A stretch of DNA of 64,000 nucleotides. It comes from Solicoccozyma terricola (Eukaryota > Basidiomycota > Tremellomycetes > Filobasidiales > Piskurozymaceae). This document shows positions 4,426 through 33,478 of this stretch, piece after piece. Each line of letters opens with the position of its first letter. Position 1 is the stretch's first letter. The notes beneath the pieces were generated by a model that worked only from the letters and a program-made list of their open reading frames with translations, had not been told where the DNA came from and ran no database searches. Location: NCBI GenBank assembly GCA_001600875.1, contig BCLD01000010.1, forward strand, positions 209,950 through 273,949, read 5' to 3'. The position numbers and the translations under genes are program-made.

Positions 4426-7400
4426 CTACCACTCCTCAACCTGTCTATCACCCGTAACAACAGCCCACGCTGTTCCTGCTATCATCATCGACCCACAGAT
4501 AGTAAACAAAATACCATGTATGATATCCCTCGTTCGACCACGTTCTTCTCGTGGTGTTAATGCAGTATAAAACATGATCTTGGGTAGTTTTGGATCCAAG
4601 AGAACGAACGAAGTGAATTAAAAAAAAAGGGAAAGGGATCAGTTTCTGTTTTATCCTTTTCGAAAGTGAAAGCATTCAACCCCCCCTTCCCCTCCCCCCC
4701 TCCCCCCCTCCCCCACCCCCCACAACTCACAGGTAATATCGCACAAATGAAAAAAGTCGTAAAACTACCTAAAAAAGCCATTAATCTTCCAAATCCAGGT
4801 AAACAAATCGCCACACCAACACAAGCAGCTGTTACACCTGCTCTAGCTAATACTCTCCAAATCGTTTTATTACGTTCCGAATTAATATAAGAAATCGGAG
4901 CGGTTGAAGGGATAGGAACGATTGAGAATGCACCGGTTGTACGGATTGTGAATTGAGAGGAAAGATCTGGAGTTGGTTGTTGTTGTTGCGGGTCATCGGC
5001 GGTGGGTTTACCGTCGGTTGTGTTGGTTCGTGCGGGTGGTACAGGTGGTGGAGAAGGGTTCAAGGAGAATACAGTTTCAACTGTGAGATTTAGCTGATGG
5101 GTTGGAAAGTAAAGAGTTTCCCAAATTTAATTTGCTTTTAGAATGGCCTTTGGTGGTTGGAAACCCCCCCTCTCCAGGATTATCCACCGACTTACTGGTC
5201 TTGTACATAAAGCGAATTTGGTAACCGGGTTAATGACCTATACGGAAAGAAAGCGAGCGATTATCAGCCCACCGCTCCACCCCCCCCCCCCCCCCCCCCC
5301 CCCCTTCCTCCTCTCAAACAAACGTACAATCATCCACGTTGCAATTTGGTTCAACGTCTTTGAAAATCCATATCTAGGTAACATGAGATCTTTTGTGATT
5401 TCATCAGATACCCTATTTCCAAACATCAAGTAACCAGCTGCCCCAGCGATGAAGAAAACGACGGATGCGATGAGCTGGTGGTGCGACCGCGGGGCATGGG
5501 GGGGGGGGACGTCAGTCATACGATGTATTACCTTAAACCTTTGATTCGCCTCACATATGCGATATTGATCATCTGGTTTAAAAAAAAAAAAGGGACACCG
5601 AAAAGAAAGAGGCGGCGGCGGCGGCGACGTCGACGTCGACATATCAGCTATTCCCACTCCAAAACCTCCATAACCACATGGTCTTCCCCAACTCACCTTG
5701 TTGAACTTCTGTGGCTCCTTCATATCAATAGCCAGACTCGGTATAATAGCGTGTCCACCAAATCCAGCAATCAATAATCCCAATCCACCTAATACATTCC
5801 CATTCGACCAATCGGGACCAAGACTGGTTGAGACGGGATCCACGATTGACCCCGGTGCAGTCCTTTTTGAAAATCCATCGACGAGGAGGATGATCAAGAC
5901 GACGGTCGACGAAACGAGTGACATGATCGATGGGATTGAAAGTAGATGTAGAGGTAGTAGAGTTGTAGGTACGATGATGAAGAACCCAATGAGCTTGTAT
6001 GTATTCGCTGATAATCCACCGAGGACTGATTCTAATGAATCTCCAAATAAAACGATCCAGGCGATACTCAATGCGAATAATTCGAGACAAAAAATGACGT
6101 CGACAAAGATACGAGCTTTCCATCCGAATGATTTGACGCCGAGGTCAGAGTAGCCACGGCAGTTCGGGTCGGCGAGGATGATCTTGGCAAGGAGTTTGGC
6201 GCTAAAAGAAAGAGCAAGGGGGGCCGGGGGGGGAACGGAGACACGATTGAGTGTTCGATTCGAGTTTCACAAACCAATTTCTTTTTTTTCCCACTACTCA
6301 CGTATAATTCGTAAAGAAACCGAAAAAGATCAACAACAACGTTCCTCCAATCCAACCGCAATAAGCGAACGCCAACGGCTCCGAGAGGATTCCAATCCCT
6401 ACCAACACCGCGATGGCGTTGAACAGCTGTGTTCACAACCAGCGTCAGAAAAAATATATAAAAAAAACAGGCCCCGCATTACCCTTCCTAACGACTTGCT
6501 CAGGAAACCCACCGTCTGACCATTCGTACTCCTTCCTAATTCCATACCCATCATCACACTCCTACTACTAACCACACTACTCCTCCTTCTCTTCCTCATC
6601 CCATCCGGATTACTCATCGACGCACGACTCCACCCACTCGTTCCCTGCTGTCCACTTCTTCTCAACCCACTCATAGTCGGCGTCACAGATAACGATACCA
6701 TCGAACGTTTTCTCAATGGCTCGATGTAGGAAGTAGGTGTAGCAGGTACAGATGAGATTATTTCATCCGTTCGTTGTGCGGTTTGTGTATTCTTTGCTGG
6801 GAAAGGAATCGGATTATCAAATGGTGTTGAAGAAGTTACCGGTCGTTTACCCATCGAACCGTATTCATTGATTGTTGTTGATTTGTATAACGAAGATGGT
6901 GGTGGTTTAGCGAATGGCGATTTGGATAGTGTTCTCAGTCGATGTGGGGATTGTGATGAAGAATCACCACCACCATCAACACCAACACCACCATTTCCTG
7001 CTGATCTCGATCGTGATGGTGAAGGAGAAGGAGACAAGTTTCCGATAATCGAAGACTGCAATTCCCTACGTCGAGAATTCGCGGAATTGCGTCTTGAATG
7101 TGGTCGAGATATTCTTTCTTCTTGATCAACATCACCGTCTTCAACCACTTGTGCATAATATTCATCCTCATCTTCTTCATCGTATTCATCATCTGAAATC
7201 CTTGATTCATCATCATCTTCAGTTCCAGTCTCAGTTTCACCATCACCTTCACCATCACCTTCACCATCCCCACCTACTCCTACCCCTTCTTCAACATCTC
7301 CACGTCGTCTTCGTCGTACACGTGGTCTAATTCGTGGACGACTATTATAAGGATCGATGGAAGATCGACGAGATGAGCCGTGATAAGGATCGAATTGAGA

Positions 7401-28279: not shown

Positions 28280-28473
28280 TCAACCTTCTGACAATGTCGC
28301 AAGTGGTAACGATCTCAATGGAATCCCTTCCACCGCTTCCGCATCCTCGTCGTCCATCTCAAAAGTCTCTTGATGATCGAATATGACGTGAGACGATCCA
28401 TCCGTGGTCGTTTCGTGAGGTCCAGTCGAACGCCTCGAGTCGAGTTGTAACCCACCCATCATTAAGCCCAGCC
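28280..28473 (-). other. Candidate C-terminal extension exon of the hexose transporter gene
   Basis: Downstream of the transporter stop (TAG at 28570-28572) the frame stays open to a gtgagt donor after 28560. An acceptor (gaacag) before 28473 then restores the same frame for 64 codons to a TGA at 28280. The encoded sequence looks protein-like: MMGGLQLDSRRSTGPHE, then an acidic EMDDEDAEAVEG and SLPLATLSEG. It could be a readthrough extension, a 3' UTR with chance coding look, or the true C-terminus if the TAG is an error. Confidence 0.35.
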
Positions 28474-28569
28474 CTGTTCTCGTGACATATTCAGCATGCG
28501 AAAACAACAACAAAAATAACATATCACGAACACACGGCCCCCATCCACCACTAACTCACCCGCACGCTC

Positions 28570-31465
28570 CTATTGAACAGCTCTATACTTTCCCGTATTC
28601 GCGTTCCTCTTCCCCCCACCTACCAATCTACTCCACCAACGTCGGTCATCTTTCCCTCTCGAATCAACCCCATTCTCATAAACACTTCCATCAGGCGTAG
28701 GAGAAGCCCCGGAGAATAAAGACGTCTCTTCATCTTCGCCAGAGTCACCGCCGTTGTCCGAATTCTCATCATCATCTTCATCTGAATCCGATTCTTTCCC
28801 GCTTTCACCATCGCCGAAGAGTTCTAAAAGAGGCAAAAAAAAAAAGAGGCGAGGGATGATTGAGCTCCGATTATTCATCCAATTGTGACGAGCGTGTAGC
28901 TTACCATCCATGTCTTCGAGAGCTGCGTGGAGACGGAAGAAGCGTCAGTTCTTGACTATTCAAATGGAAGGCAAGCGGACAAAATATTACTCACGGACTC
29001 CCGCAGTCTCAGGGTAGAAGAAATACACCTATTCGCTTTCATGTGGTCAACTCTCCGCCGATATACACTCGTCCGCTTCATCCCCTTCAGCTTTCGTCGT
29101 CACTCACGCAAACAAAGCTTATCGAAATGAAGAACGCATACATCGGGTACACACGCCAACCGATAACTTCTTGTAGCGTTGGCGTAGTGACGCCGACCCA
29201 ATACTACACAGTGGGGTGGCAAACTGATCAGCAAGAGCTCGTTCAGTCGGAGAAAAAAACAGAAGGGGGCCGAGTCTTACGTTGAAGAACCAATTCTGTG
29301 ATGATTTAGACAGATGAATGAGCACCTCGGAGCGTTGATATCCGTCTTGTCCTCACTCACAGTTGCCGTAGAAATGGAGACGCCTTTCGCTCGGAAGGAA
29401 AGAGGCATGATTTCGGGAGGGTACAGCCTGTTCCAAACAACGAGTCAGTGTGGTCTTCACCAAGACATTGCGACGCTCGAACTCACCATGGAAGTGGACC
29501 CCACGACATTGCGAAAGACGCGTTGTAGAGAATGACAAGGACGACAGTGGCATTTGCGGTGTAACTAGCGTCGACTTTCAATGCCCATCCGAGGGCGATA
29601 AGAGAAGCACCGGTCTATATTTCGAAAGAAAGTGGTTTCAGGAAAGACCAAGGCCGTCGAAAAGACCCCCAGATCAGAGTTGAGGGGATGGCACCTACGG
29701 CTACTGCGCCATAAAGCAAGATTGGCCGTCGTCCTAAACGGTCTACCATGAACCAAGGTACGATCGATCCTGCCATGTAGCAAATGGCATTGATACCAGT
29801 CATGAGAATGGCGTCTCGTCCGATCCAACCAGCGGCTAGTGGTAATTGAGGATAAGTGTCACCCTAAAATTGTTTATGAAATGTTAAAGCTCACATTCGA
29901 AAACTGTAAGAAACTCGACGTCAATCAATTCAGTCATTCGTGTTTGAAGACGAAGTGGGCAAAACACTCACGCAGCGGAGCGTAATAAGATATTCTAAAT
30001 CAGAGCAGAGGAGCGACCAATCAAATGAGCACATGTTCACCTTCTGCTTCTTTTCCTTCTCTCAAGACGTACAAGTTGATACCGTTCTATCAATGAAGTC
30101 AATTGTGGAATCAACTCCCAAGTTCCAGAAAACATCAAAAACGTCGCCTTCAAGCCAACTCACCATCTGCGCGAAAGCTTGACTACTCGCTGCGATCAAT
30201 ACACGACCTCGATACCTCTTCCACAGTGCTTTGTAAGACCTATCACCGACAGCTCTCTATTTTGGCGGAGCATCATCAGTAAATGTGTCTCCGTTAAGGC
30301 AAATAACGGGGGAAAAAAAGGAAAAAAGGAAAAAAGGAAAAAAAGAAAACACTAACATCCGCTAATACCGCCTGTTTAATGGCTTGAAACTCGGCTTTTG
30401 TTACTGGATCCTCTAAATTCCCATCATGAAAGTCTGCAATGACTTTTAAACCTTCAACGTCTTGATCTGTATCAATTAGATAACTGCCGATGCCAGAAAA
30501 CCCCGTCCACCTCCACAAATCAGAATGCCGGGTTCGTCGAAAGGAGGATTAACATGGGTAAGTAAACGCAAACGTACCGAGGTGATTCTGGAATCAATAA
30601 AGCACCTCCTGCTAATATTAAACCACCAACACATTGTATTGATAGAGGTATACGCCATGATTGGTTGGATTTTATGAATGAGCAAAAGTAGTCGATCCAC
30701 TGCGAGGGGGGGAGGTTAGGTTTTATGGGTTGGTGCTTGAATCAAGGTCCGACGTCGGGATAGTAATTCACTCACGATTGAAGAAGCATATCCAATGATC
30801 TGAAGGGGGAAATATTTCATTTTGTTTAGGTTCATGAAAGCCAGCATGAGATTCCAAAAATCATAGAATATTGAAAAAACACCCACATTCCCAGTAAATT
30901 CCACACAAGCGAGTTTCCCACGCTAAATTTGGGTGATCATAATGTCTTCGAAAATCAGTCCCCCTTCAAACCTTCCCAAAGGAGAGGGAAAAGAAAACGG
31001 GGGAAAAAAACAATCTAATGTTTTCGACATATCCTCACATGATCAGCTGGTGATATCTCCGATTGATAAATCGGAACCACCATCCTATTTCAACCAAAAA
31101 AAAAAAAAAACCCCCATCATCATCTTAATCAACATTATAATTCTTTCACGCTTTTTAACTTCTCTCCCCCCCTCCCCCCCGCGCTCCCCTGGGGTACTCA
31201 CGATAACATCCCAACCCCAAACCCACTGATTATCCTCCCAACCAACATGAGTTCATACCCATTAGTAAAAGTTTGAATCGTTCCTCCAACACAGAATATA
31301 CAAGCTCCTAAAAAGAGTGTAAATCGACGACCTTTTTGATCTGCTAATGGTGCAGCTAATAGGGATGTTACTGTTGTAAGAAGGGGGGGAGGTTGGTTAG
31401 GGTAACGACGAATTTAAAAGAAATTCCAAATCAGTCGCCAAAACATGAAAAGAGGAAGTGGTTGT

Positions 31466-31508
<43 letters not shown>

Positions 31509-32124
31509 CGAACTAAATGCTCCTATCTCTAGAATCGCTACCATATTTCCAAGTTCACTCGACGTCGGTTGATTGACTTTAATAAGTGAGGGATGGTAGT
31601 AAGAGGGGGGGGGGGAAGAGGCGGCGGACCGTCGTAAGAACGATAAACACATCGGGGGGGCGACCGTTTTTCCAAATGGTGGGGAGTCGGGTAATTTAAA
31701 ACTCACAATATGCTTTGAAATATGGACCGGTGATTATTCCAGACATGACTCTATAGGGAGTATAGTTGAACCGAACCAAATTCCAAAAAAATCAGCAAAA
31801 CACGTACAATCGGGGGACTTGACATGTCTGGGGAATTGAAAAATTGGATTGCGTACCCTTGATCATATCTAAAACGAAAGAAAAGAAAGGAAGAGGAAAA
31901 TCAAACCCCATCGAAACGATCAGTTCCATCAACCATCAACCCTCCCACCACTCCCCCCCCCCCAAAACTCACCCAAATAACCAAACACCAATCGACAAAA
32001 ACACCGAAACGCTATATAACAACGGTTTACCTACCAACCTACTCCTCGTAACTCCATGAACCCGCGGAGTTACCGTGGTTGGTAAAGCCATCCTAACCAG
32101 ACGTCTGGATGTATCGTCGATCAT
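28570..32124 (-). CDS. MFS hexose transporter assembled from 22 exons including microexons
   Basis: Reverse-strand exons: 31973-32124, 31857-31868, 31707-31750, 31514-31576, 31202-31370, 31039-31084, 30887-30922, 30776-30799, 30578-30699, 30357-30483, 30164-30256, 30073-30086, 29972-29994, 29895-29903, 29699-29835, 29487-29614, 29361-29427, 29281-29295, 29108-29203, 28995-29028, 28905-28922, 28570-28823. All close in phase, giving 560 residues from the Met at 32124. Sugar-porter hallmarks appear only after joining: LFGYDQGVMSGI, DQKGRRFTL, VPIYQSEISPADHRGK, IPESPR, NGINLISYYAPLLFESAGW, DRLGRRPILL, MSWGPLPWLYPPEI and PETAGVPLEDMDELFG. The protein imports hexoses across the plasma membrane in a proton- or gradient-driven way, by family. 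The C-terminal tail is acidic, then basic. The frame is open upstream to an acceptor before 32191, so a further 5' exon may exist near the assembly gap. Confidence 0.88.
31466..31505. repeat. 40-nt G homopolymer inside a transporter intron
   Basis: A run of 40 G on the plus strand (C in the transcript). It lies in the intron between the transporter exons 31514-31576 and 31202-31370, beginning 8 nt after the gttcgt donor. Confidence 0.9.
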
Positions 32125-33478
32125 TGCAAATGGAAAGGTATTGGTAGGATAAGCATTCGTTTGACCAAAAGTTGCTTGTGTCCACCCCGACCTGGCACGA
32201 GATGAGATGGGAAAAAAGGTTGGGGTTTTTTGGATAACTTACGACTCTATGATACAGGACGAGGTTGAACCCTTGTACGAGAAGACAAAGGGTAGGATGG
32301 AGGGTTGTACTGTGTATATATCTATTGAGCATACCCTTTCAATATATCGGGGCGGGGGNNNNNNNNNNNNNNNNNNNNNNNNNNNNNNNGGGGGGCAAGA
32401 TCTATGTTGTTAAGCATACAAAGGCAAGTGATGCATTTGAAGGCAAAGGTCCAAGTACATGGGATATCTGATATCATTCATTCGTTGGATACATAAATTA
32501 TCATAAAAAGAAAGAAAATGCATTTTTGTCAATACTTGGGAAAACCCTTATAGGGGGGGTGGGTGGATTCGGCAAAAATGTGGCCTTCACAGAATACAAT
32601 GATTTCCGATCTAATGAAGAATTCCCTAACCCCCTTTTTGTTGATAGATAAGGATTTTATCCAATAGAATGAGGGGAAAGGGGGGTGGGGGGCATGCCTA
32701 ACGGAGCCTTCGTGTGATCAGGCCAGAAGGTGAAATGGTTCAAATACGTCGATGTGATGAGGAGCCGGGGTGGGGGAAGGGAAGGGAGGCCAAAGACGCG
32801 ACATGAATTGTCAACAAAAGCCTACTTGCCCGGCCCCCCCCCCCCTGGTCCTCGTTGAAATGTGACATGATATGATGGATTGGACGTACAATTACTAATG
32901 AAAAGCCCTACTGTGCATCCCCTCGGACGAAACGACAAGGTTGAGTGTGTATTGGGTTGTGAAGTGGGGGGGAAGTGGATGCTGCGCTTGATGAGGGAAT
33001 GTGACCATCACACAGAGGAGGGAGGGGGGGGCGCGTCGGGTGAGGGGGGGAGGGGGCGTGGATCATAACAAATCGGGATATGTGGAATCGGAGGGGAGGG
33101 CATATACAGACACAGACCAAAGCTTGGGTAGATGTCATTCGTATATCACCATATCATACATATCTCTACATCTCGAACGTCCACACACGGGTTCCCTTTT
33201 CCTCGTCAACACACTCAACATACACCTACCAGCGGGGCCAACATATAACCCTCATTCTCGTTTCTCACCTCCATCTCTACAAGTCAGGGTGCGTTCAAGT
33301 TGTCCGCATGTTGCAGTTCCATACCATACCATAGCTAACATCACATACATCACCCCCATCCCTCTTCCAGACCCCCAATCACACATCCCCTTCCAAATCC
33401 TATCACCTACCCTTTCGGCAACCCGTCCTCCCTACCTCCCTCCCTCCCTACCTACGTCCCTCCCACGTCCAACCCACC
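32125..33478. other. Divergent upstream region with assembly gap
   Basis: About 1.35 kb between the transporter start and the homeodomain gene start. It contains the N gap, many short G and C runs (for example near 32557-32690 and 33020-33060) and a C/T-rich leader before 33479. The first ~70 bp upstream of the transporter Met remain open in its frame. Confidence 0.5.
32359..32389. other. Assembly gap (31 N) with G tracts on both sides
   Basis: 31 N bases preceded by GGGGCGGGGG and followed by GGGGGG. The flanks suggest that a long G homopolymer stopped sequencing here, so the true length is unknown. Confidence 0.95.

Follow-up and report, generated by a model that had tools for sequence, protein, structure and literature searches.

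A sugar-porter gene of the Tremellomycete Solicoccozyma terricola is very probably intact, interrupted by 21 short spliceosomal introns and joined in its main transcript from 22 exons, seven of which would be real coding exons of 9-24 nt. The gene occupies positions 28570-32124 on the minus strand of the window, i.e. the whole stretch of 64,000 nucleotides that was analysed, on contig C10 of a genome of 23.9 Mb in 33 contigs. The joined exons run from an ATG at 32124 to a stop codon at 28570 and form a single open frame of 1683 coding nt (560 aa) with no internal stop. All 21 introns have GT..AG ends and their phases are consistent. The seven smallest exons (9, 12, 14, 15, 18, 23 and 24 nt) are internal, have their own acceptor and donor and fall below the reported length limits for microexons, which are <30 bp (PMC9142197) or usually <=36 bp (PMC11121469).

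The product matches the Pfam family Sugar_tr (PF00083) with 346.9 bits (cut-off 22.3) over domain positions 3-452 of 452. It carries GYDQG at residues 51-55, NGIN at 297-300 and PETAG at 465-469, as compared in the homologue alignment; GYDxG, GIN and PETxG are typical motifs of sugar porters and are also seen in the homologues. Among the matches listed, the best homologues come from Naematelia (73% identity), Papiliotrema (73%) and Saitozyma (64%), with a query cover of 82-98%, and none is a near-identical protein. The locus thus reads as an intact sugar-porter (hexose transporter) gene, hexose transport itself being predicted from sequence.

The preliminary description of this DNA had proposed a 22-exon sugar transporter at this place, and the joined frame, the Sugar_tr score and a spliced alignment bear it out. 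The microexons it had listed, now exons 2, 12, 14, 18 and 21, and the additional exons of 23 and 24 nt are all found where it had put them (Table 1), each with the AG acceptor, GT donor and exact phase that it had claimed. It had also called the microexons in-frame; of the seven small exons, this holds for those of 9, 12, 15, 18 and 24 nt but not for those of 14 and 23 nt, which are not multiples of three. Indeed, skipping exon 12 or 13 would shift the frame, and skipping exon 2, 8, 14, 18 or 21 would keep it.

Table 1. Exons of the hexose transporter gene in window positions; bits are the loss of alignment score when that exon is barred.
Exon	Length (nt)	Position	Strand	Encoded residues or feature	Support
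1	152	31973..32124	-		joined frame; start codon 32124 by ORF only, homology from 32058
2	12	31857..31868	-	G(split)-YDQ-G(split), carries D53	frame, spliced aligner, 24.0 bits; clean skip in P0014, P0107
3	44	31707..31750	-		frame, spliced aligner
4	63	31514..31576	-		frame, spliced aligner
5	169	31202..31370	-		frame, spliced aligner
6	46	31039..31084	-		frame, spliced aligner
7	36	30887..30922	-		frame, spliced aligner
8	24	30776..30799	-	IIGYASSI	frame, spliced aligner, 37.3 bits
9	122	30578..30699	-		frame, spliced aligner
10	127	30357..30483	-		frame, spliced aligner
11	93	30164..30256	-	ending ...FAQM	frame, spliced aligner
12	14	30073..30086	-	NGIN, carries N300	frame, spliced aligner, 48.8 bits; apparent donor read-through at this border in homologues
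13	23	29972..29994	-	ISYYAPL	frame, spliced aligner, 45.0 bits
14	9	29895..29903	-	L(split)-FE-S(split)	frame, spliced aligner, 14.2 bits (lowest of seven)
15	137	29699..29835	-	acceptor CACTAG	frame, spliced aligner
16	128	29487..29614	-		frame, spliced aligner
17	67	29361..29427	-		frame, spliced aligner
18	15	29281..29295	-	NWFFN, carries N423 and N427	frame, spliced aligner, 28.8 bits; STP10 alignment
19	96	29108..29203	-		frame, spliced aligner
20	34	28995..29028	-	VYFFYPETAGV	frame, spliced aligner
21	18	28905..28922	-	P(split)-LEDMD-E(split)	frame, spliced aligner, 29.9 bits
22	254	28570..28823	-	acidic tail and stop	joined frame; true tail end not fixed by homology

Tests of the exon structure

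The exon borders were examined with a spliced profile-to-DNA aligner, using a profile of 120 listed homologues from which the query protein was excluded. From the exon 1 donor to the exon 22 acceptor, the borders obtained were identical to those of the model at all six parameter settings. At the four settings with lower intron penalties, extra pieces appeared in the poorly conserved C-terminal tail and brought the total to 25-26 exons; the other two settings gave 22. Barring any one exon of <=24 nt cost between 14.2 and 48.8 bits, which supports the earlier claim that the sugar-porter signature emerges only if the microexons are kept. As a chance control, each of five regions bounded by long exons was shuffled 300 times with dinucleotides preserved. 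The observed score was attained by none of the 300 shuffles in any region; one or two spurious small exons were gained in some of them, most commonly in the long region of exons 12-14 (103/300). For exon 15, an acceptor TTTTAG just upstream of GGTGACAC was read by hand and rejected, since it gives a 31-nt intron and a stop. The next AG (CACTAG) brings back the frame and the residues SAGWIGRD.

The ends of the gene are less firmly placed: the profile match starts at 32058, and homology fixes neither the start codon at 32124 nor the C-terminal end. Downstream of the stop, an open stretch of about 64 aa (28280-28473) lies behind a CAG acceptor, and a GTGAGT donor is found at 28559. This stretch might serve as an alternative C-terminal exon or follow a 3'-UTR intron; many of the enumerated joins into it keep an open frame and none is singled out. 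Just upstream of the gene is a gap of 31 N (32359-32389) with C-rich flanks, and a 5' leader exon could therefore be hidden there. The window also holds pure C runs, of 40 nt on the minus strand within intron 4 (31466-31505) and of 25 nt each on the plus strand (2466-2490 and 5280-5304); no C run of 20 arose in 100 shuffles of the window.

Two other readings of the exon structure have to be weighed against these data. The model could be mostly right, which is compatible with the main explanation, but differ from the real transcript at exon 14, at the start of the first exon or at the C-terminal end. Exon 14 has the weakest support of the seven, its skipping leaves the frame intact and homologues differ at its border; likewise, the late onset of homology and the open stretch behind the CAG acceptor leave room for other ends. 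Nevertheless, dropping exon 14 loses a conserved [VL]FE, and the alternative C-terminal joins use many different donors with none standing out, so we regard a revision of this kind as rather unlikely. According to the other reading, chance AG..GT fragments have been stitched together over a decayed copy or over a gene with a quite different exon layout. Nothing speaks for it beyond the general risk attached to fragments of 9-15 nt. With no shuffle out of 300 reaching the score in any of the five regions, a separate aligner in agreement and a frame free of internal stops, it is scarcely credible.

The introns of the gene are short (59-143 nt, median 81) and dense, about 12.5 per kb of coding sequence (21 in 1683 nt). 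Donors fit GTRNGT in 14 of 21 cases and acceptors are YAG in 20 of 21. A CTNAY motif is present at branchpoint range in 15 of the 21 introns and absent from the searched range in the other six; the shuffle mean is 6.9, and 15 is reached in 0/500 shuffles. Relaxing the motif to YTNAY weakens the contrast (19/21 introns vs 14.9 in shuffles, reached by 8/500). CTNAY is found in nine of the 12 introns adjoining a microexon, and the splice signals flanking the microexons resemble those of the remaining introns. Since the introns are short and their signals mostly good, intron definition is a reasonable inference: the spliceosome would pair sites across the short flanking introns and not across the exon, and the main transcript would join all 22 exons.

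As controls from the same genome, 24 sugar-porter loci, to which the same aligner was applied, and five HSP70 loci were used. The sugar-porter loci have 1 to 15 exons each, and pieces of <=24 nt occur in 12 of the 24 models, at most two per model and often at the model end, where the aligner is least reliable. The profile behind these models comes from a distant subfamily and is only partly covered by many of them. Each HSP70 locus is divided into 4 to 12 exons; the single piece of <25 nt among them is a doubtful 7-nt first exon. The 22-exon transporter is the most divided gene among those examined, the controls being few and the paralogue models rough; for the same reasons, other genes of this genome may well have small exons too. 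Intron positions were compared at 12 of the 24 paralogous loci: L054 and L043 each match one exact position, and several others fall within one column in another phase. Matches this sparse mean that the paralogues do not date the introns. L054 (G000:C5:1196000-1199800) is a second sugar porter of 15 modelled exons, several of them of 18-33 nt, and has a single intron position in common with the 22-exon gene. In sharp contrast with the 22-exon gene, the sugar porters L001 (G000:C9) and L002 (G000:C13) encode most of the domain within a single open frame, of 627 and 501 aa, respectively.

Homologue annotations and the age of the microexons

Across the 120 listed homologues, the conserved core (residues 35-481) was searched for internal gaps of 2 aa or more, deletions at the core ends being set aside. 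Ten of the 20 gaps touch the 41 residues touched by the seven microexons, vs 2.8 by random placement, and the remaining ten fall outside microexons. None of 10000 random placements reached ten, which is not a clean probability as the rows are related; for that reason, neither the deletions nor the read-throughs can be counted as independent events. For instance, the sequence SIGVWLF-GVMS in P0014 (Kwoniella dendrophila) and P0107 (Vanrija pseudolonga) lacks exactly GYDQ, the product expected from exon 1 joined to exon 3 by a clean 12-nt skip. At the place of exon 14, PLVFE is missing in 6 of the 120 homologues, one of them the agaric Gymnopus androsaceus; this gap spans five residues (15 nt) vs three here, and the border differs between species. 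A search with the Gymnopus protein gave 48 further proteins; PLVFE is absent from four of them and an overlapping stretch of five residues from two, and NGINL is missing in one.

Of the 23 rows assigned to Tremellomycetes from the genus name, FGYDQG is present in 19 and an intact NGIN..SYYAPL.FE in 13, leaving ten without the intact pattern of exons 12-14. F[AS]Q[LMF] stands without a subsequent xGIN in 15 of 168 homologues, and in 11 of the 15 the next residue is V (VS 5, VT 2, VG 2, VR 1, VC 1), as expected if a GTN donor precisely at the exon 11/12 border had been read through. Several annotations show unrelated sequence in place of a clean skip. These damaged annotations indirectly confirm the earlier claim that gene callers are prone to miss microexons; the protein gaps could also be real isoforms. 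For exons 8, 18 and 21, none of the 120 homologues misses half of the residues, and a small size elsewhere is thus not attested; the only oddity seen for these exons in that set is a 4-aa insert after the exon 8 residues in P0009. Eight proteins that are agaricomycetes by name (P0086, P0110, P0115, P0252, P0259, P0263, P0275 and P0285) lack residues 461-463 at the start of the exon 20 region, where the annotations perhaps missed another tiny exon or took a shifted acceptor.

Since similar annotation damage occurs in Agaricomycetes, the intron before NGIN and the small exons after it are probably common to Tremellomycetes and Agaricomycetes. The pattern suggests that the cluster of exons 12-14 is old, and these exons would probably have been inherited from an ancestor common to both groups. 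An intron-rich fungal ancestor and later intron gain in Cryptococcus neoformans are both supported (PMC2246297), and age must therefore be decided position by position.

Predicted functional residues and known microexon genes

The best solved relatives of the product are plant sugar transport proteins, with STP10 (PDB 6h7d) aligned at residues 42-479 (E 2e-54). Its chain numbering is the published residue number plus 1, as Phe39, Asp42 and Leu43 show. The two proteins belong to the same family and have the GYD, GIN and N-x-F-F start in common. A buried Asp in TM1, together with the glucose-contact residues, marks proton-coupled monosaccharide symporters like STP10. In STP10, Asp42 serves proton coupling and Asn301, Asn433, Thr437 and Gln295 are sugar contacts (PMC6345825). 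In the alignment, D53, encoded by exon 2, corresponds to Asp42, N300 in exon 12 to Asn301, and N423 and N427, both in exon 18, to Asn433 and Thr437, the latter being Asn here. STP10 is a plant protein, and its glucose contact Gln295 is replaced by A294 in the fungal product. By this comparison, residues predicted to bind sugar and protons lie on microexons. This co-location may be partly an effect of detection, because microexons are easiest to spot in conserved motifs. It has also been suggested that micro-exons are favoured where introns hit conserved motifs (PMC12940212).

The placement of these residues bears on a reading that would add to the main explanation, in which the frame-neutral microexons (9, 12, 15, 18 and 24 nt) are sometimes skipped and yield full-length but transport-dead proteins, acting as an off-switch or sugar sensor. 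Loss of exon 2 would remove the match to Asp42, and loss of exon 18 those to Asn433 and Thr437. A glucose-dependent microexon is reported in Trichoderma Xlr2 (PMC11121469), and in C. neoformans, MFS and sugar transporters are over-represented among the genes that have alternative transcripts (PMC3990503). On the other hand, the homologue gaps are equally well explained as annotation errors, several annotations carrying unrelated sequence where a skip should leave a clean join, and the microexon splice signals are like those of the other introns, making regulated skipping improbable. A broader version, in which the basidiomycete hexose transporters of this clade have retained an ancient microexon array on proton-coupling and sugar-contact residues, several of the exons being frame-neutral, and skipping turns uptake off or makes a non-transporting sensor, is very improbable. 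The main explanation holds that all seven pieces would be required for a conserved membrane protein.

C. neoformans, also a Tremellomycete, offers one comparison. Its genes have exons down to 1 bp, which are hard for automatic annotation, on average 5.7 introns (3.35 per kb coding), with a record of 42 in one gene, and a median intron of 56 nt (PMC3990503). Tiny exons and short introns are thus found in both cases, whereas the intron density of the transporter gene is several-fold that of C. neoformans. Fusarium CYP621A has a 1-nt exon, called there the first in a fungal gene (PMC12940212), in spite of the earlier 1-bp report from C. neoformans (PMC3990503). Among basidiomycetes, the P450 genes of Phanerochaete chrysosporium contain microexons of 2-10 aa with a shortest exon of 6 bp (PMC1184071), a gene family similar to the transporter in this respect but of another protein family. 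The closest known case is bglA of Rhodotorula minuta, with 22 exons, 10 of them microexons (<30 bp) and the shortest of 6 bp (PMC9142197); as in the transporter, introns are many and short. The trait is uneven among the bglA genes of basidiomycetous yeasts: 19 exons with three microexons (shortest 18 bp) in H. singularis, 17 with two (shortest 5 bp) in S. magnum and seven with none in S. elviae (PMC9142197). bglA encodes a beta-glycosidase, and its exons were fixed against cDNA in that work, those of H. singularis coming from an earlier paper (PMC9142197), whereas the transporter exons are predicted here from genomic DNA.

In view of these cases, one claim of the preliminary description falls: exons of 9 nt are not near the lower limit known, as 1-bp, 1-nt, 5-6-bp and 6-bp fungal exons are in print. 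Microexons concentrated to a comparable degree in one gene have likewise been published, for R. minuta bglA. No description of microexons in this sugar-transporter family was found among the titles and abstract starts listed from the open-licence literature. Small fungal exons (1 to 10 nt) and microexon-rich genes are already known; what the transporter adds is the placement of the microexons, their probable age and their effect on annotation. Frame-neutral skips of exons 2, 8, 14, 18 or 21, if made, would give altered full-length proteins. The gene offers a clean test case for the splicing of very small fungal exons, and its exons of 12-15 nt hold residues on which transport is expected to depend. 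Furthermore, since ten of the 23 Tremellomycete homologues miss the intact exon 12-14 pattern, public protein sets of Tremellomycete sugar transporters probably contain wrong sequence in the substrate site.
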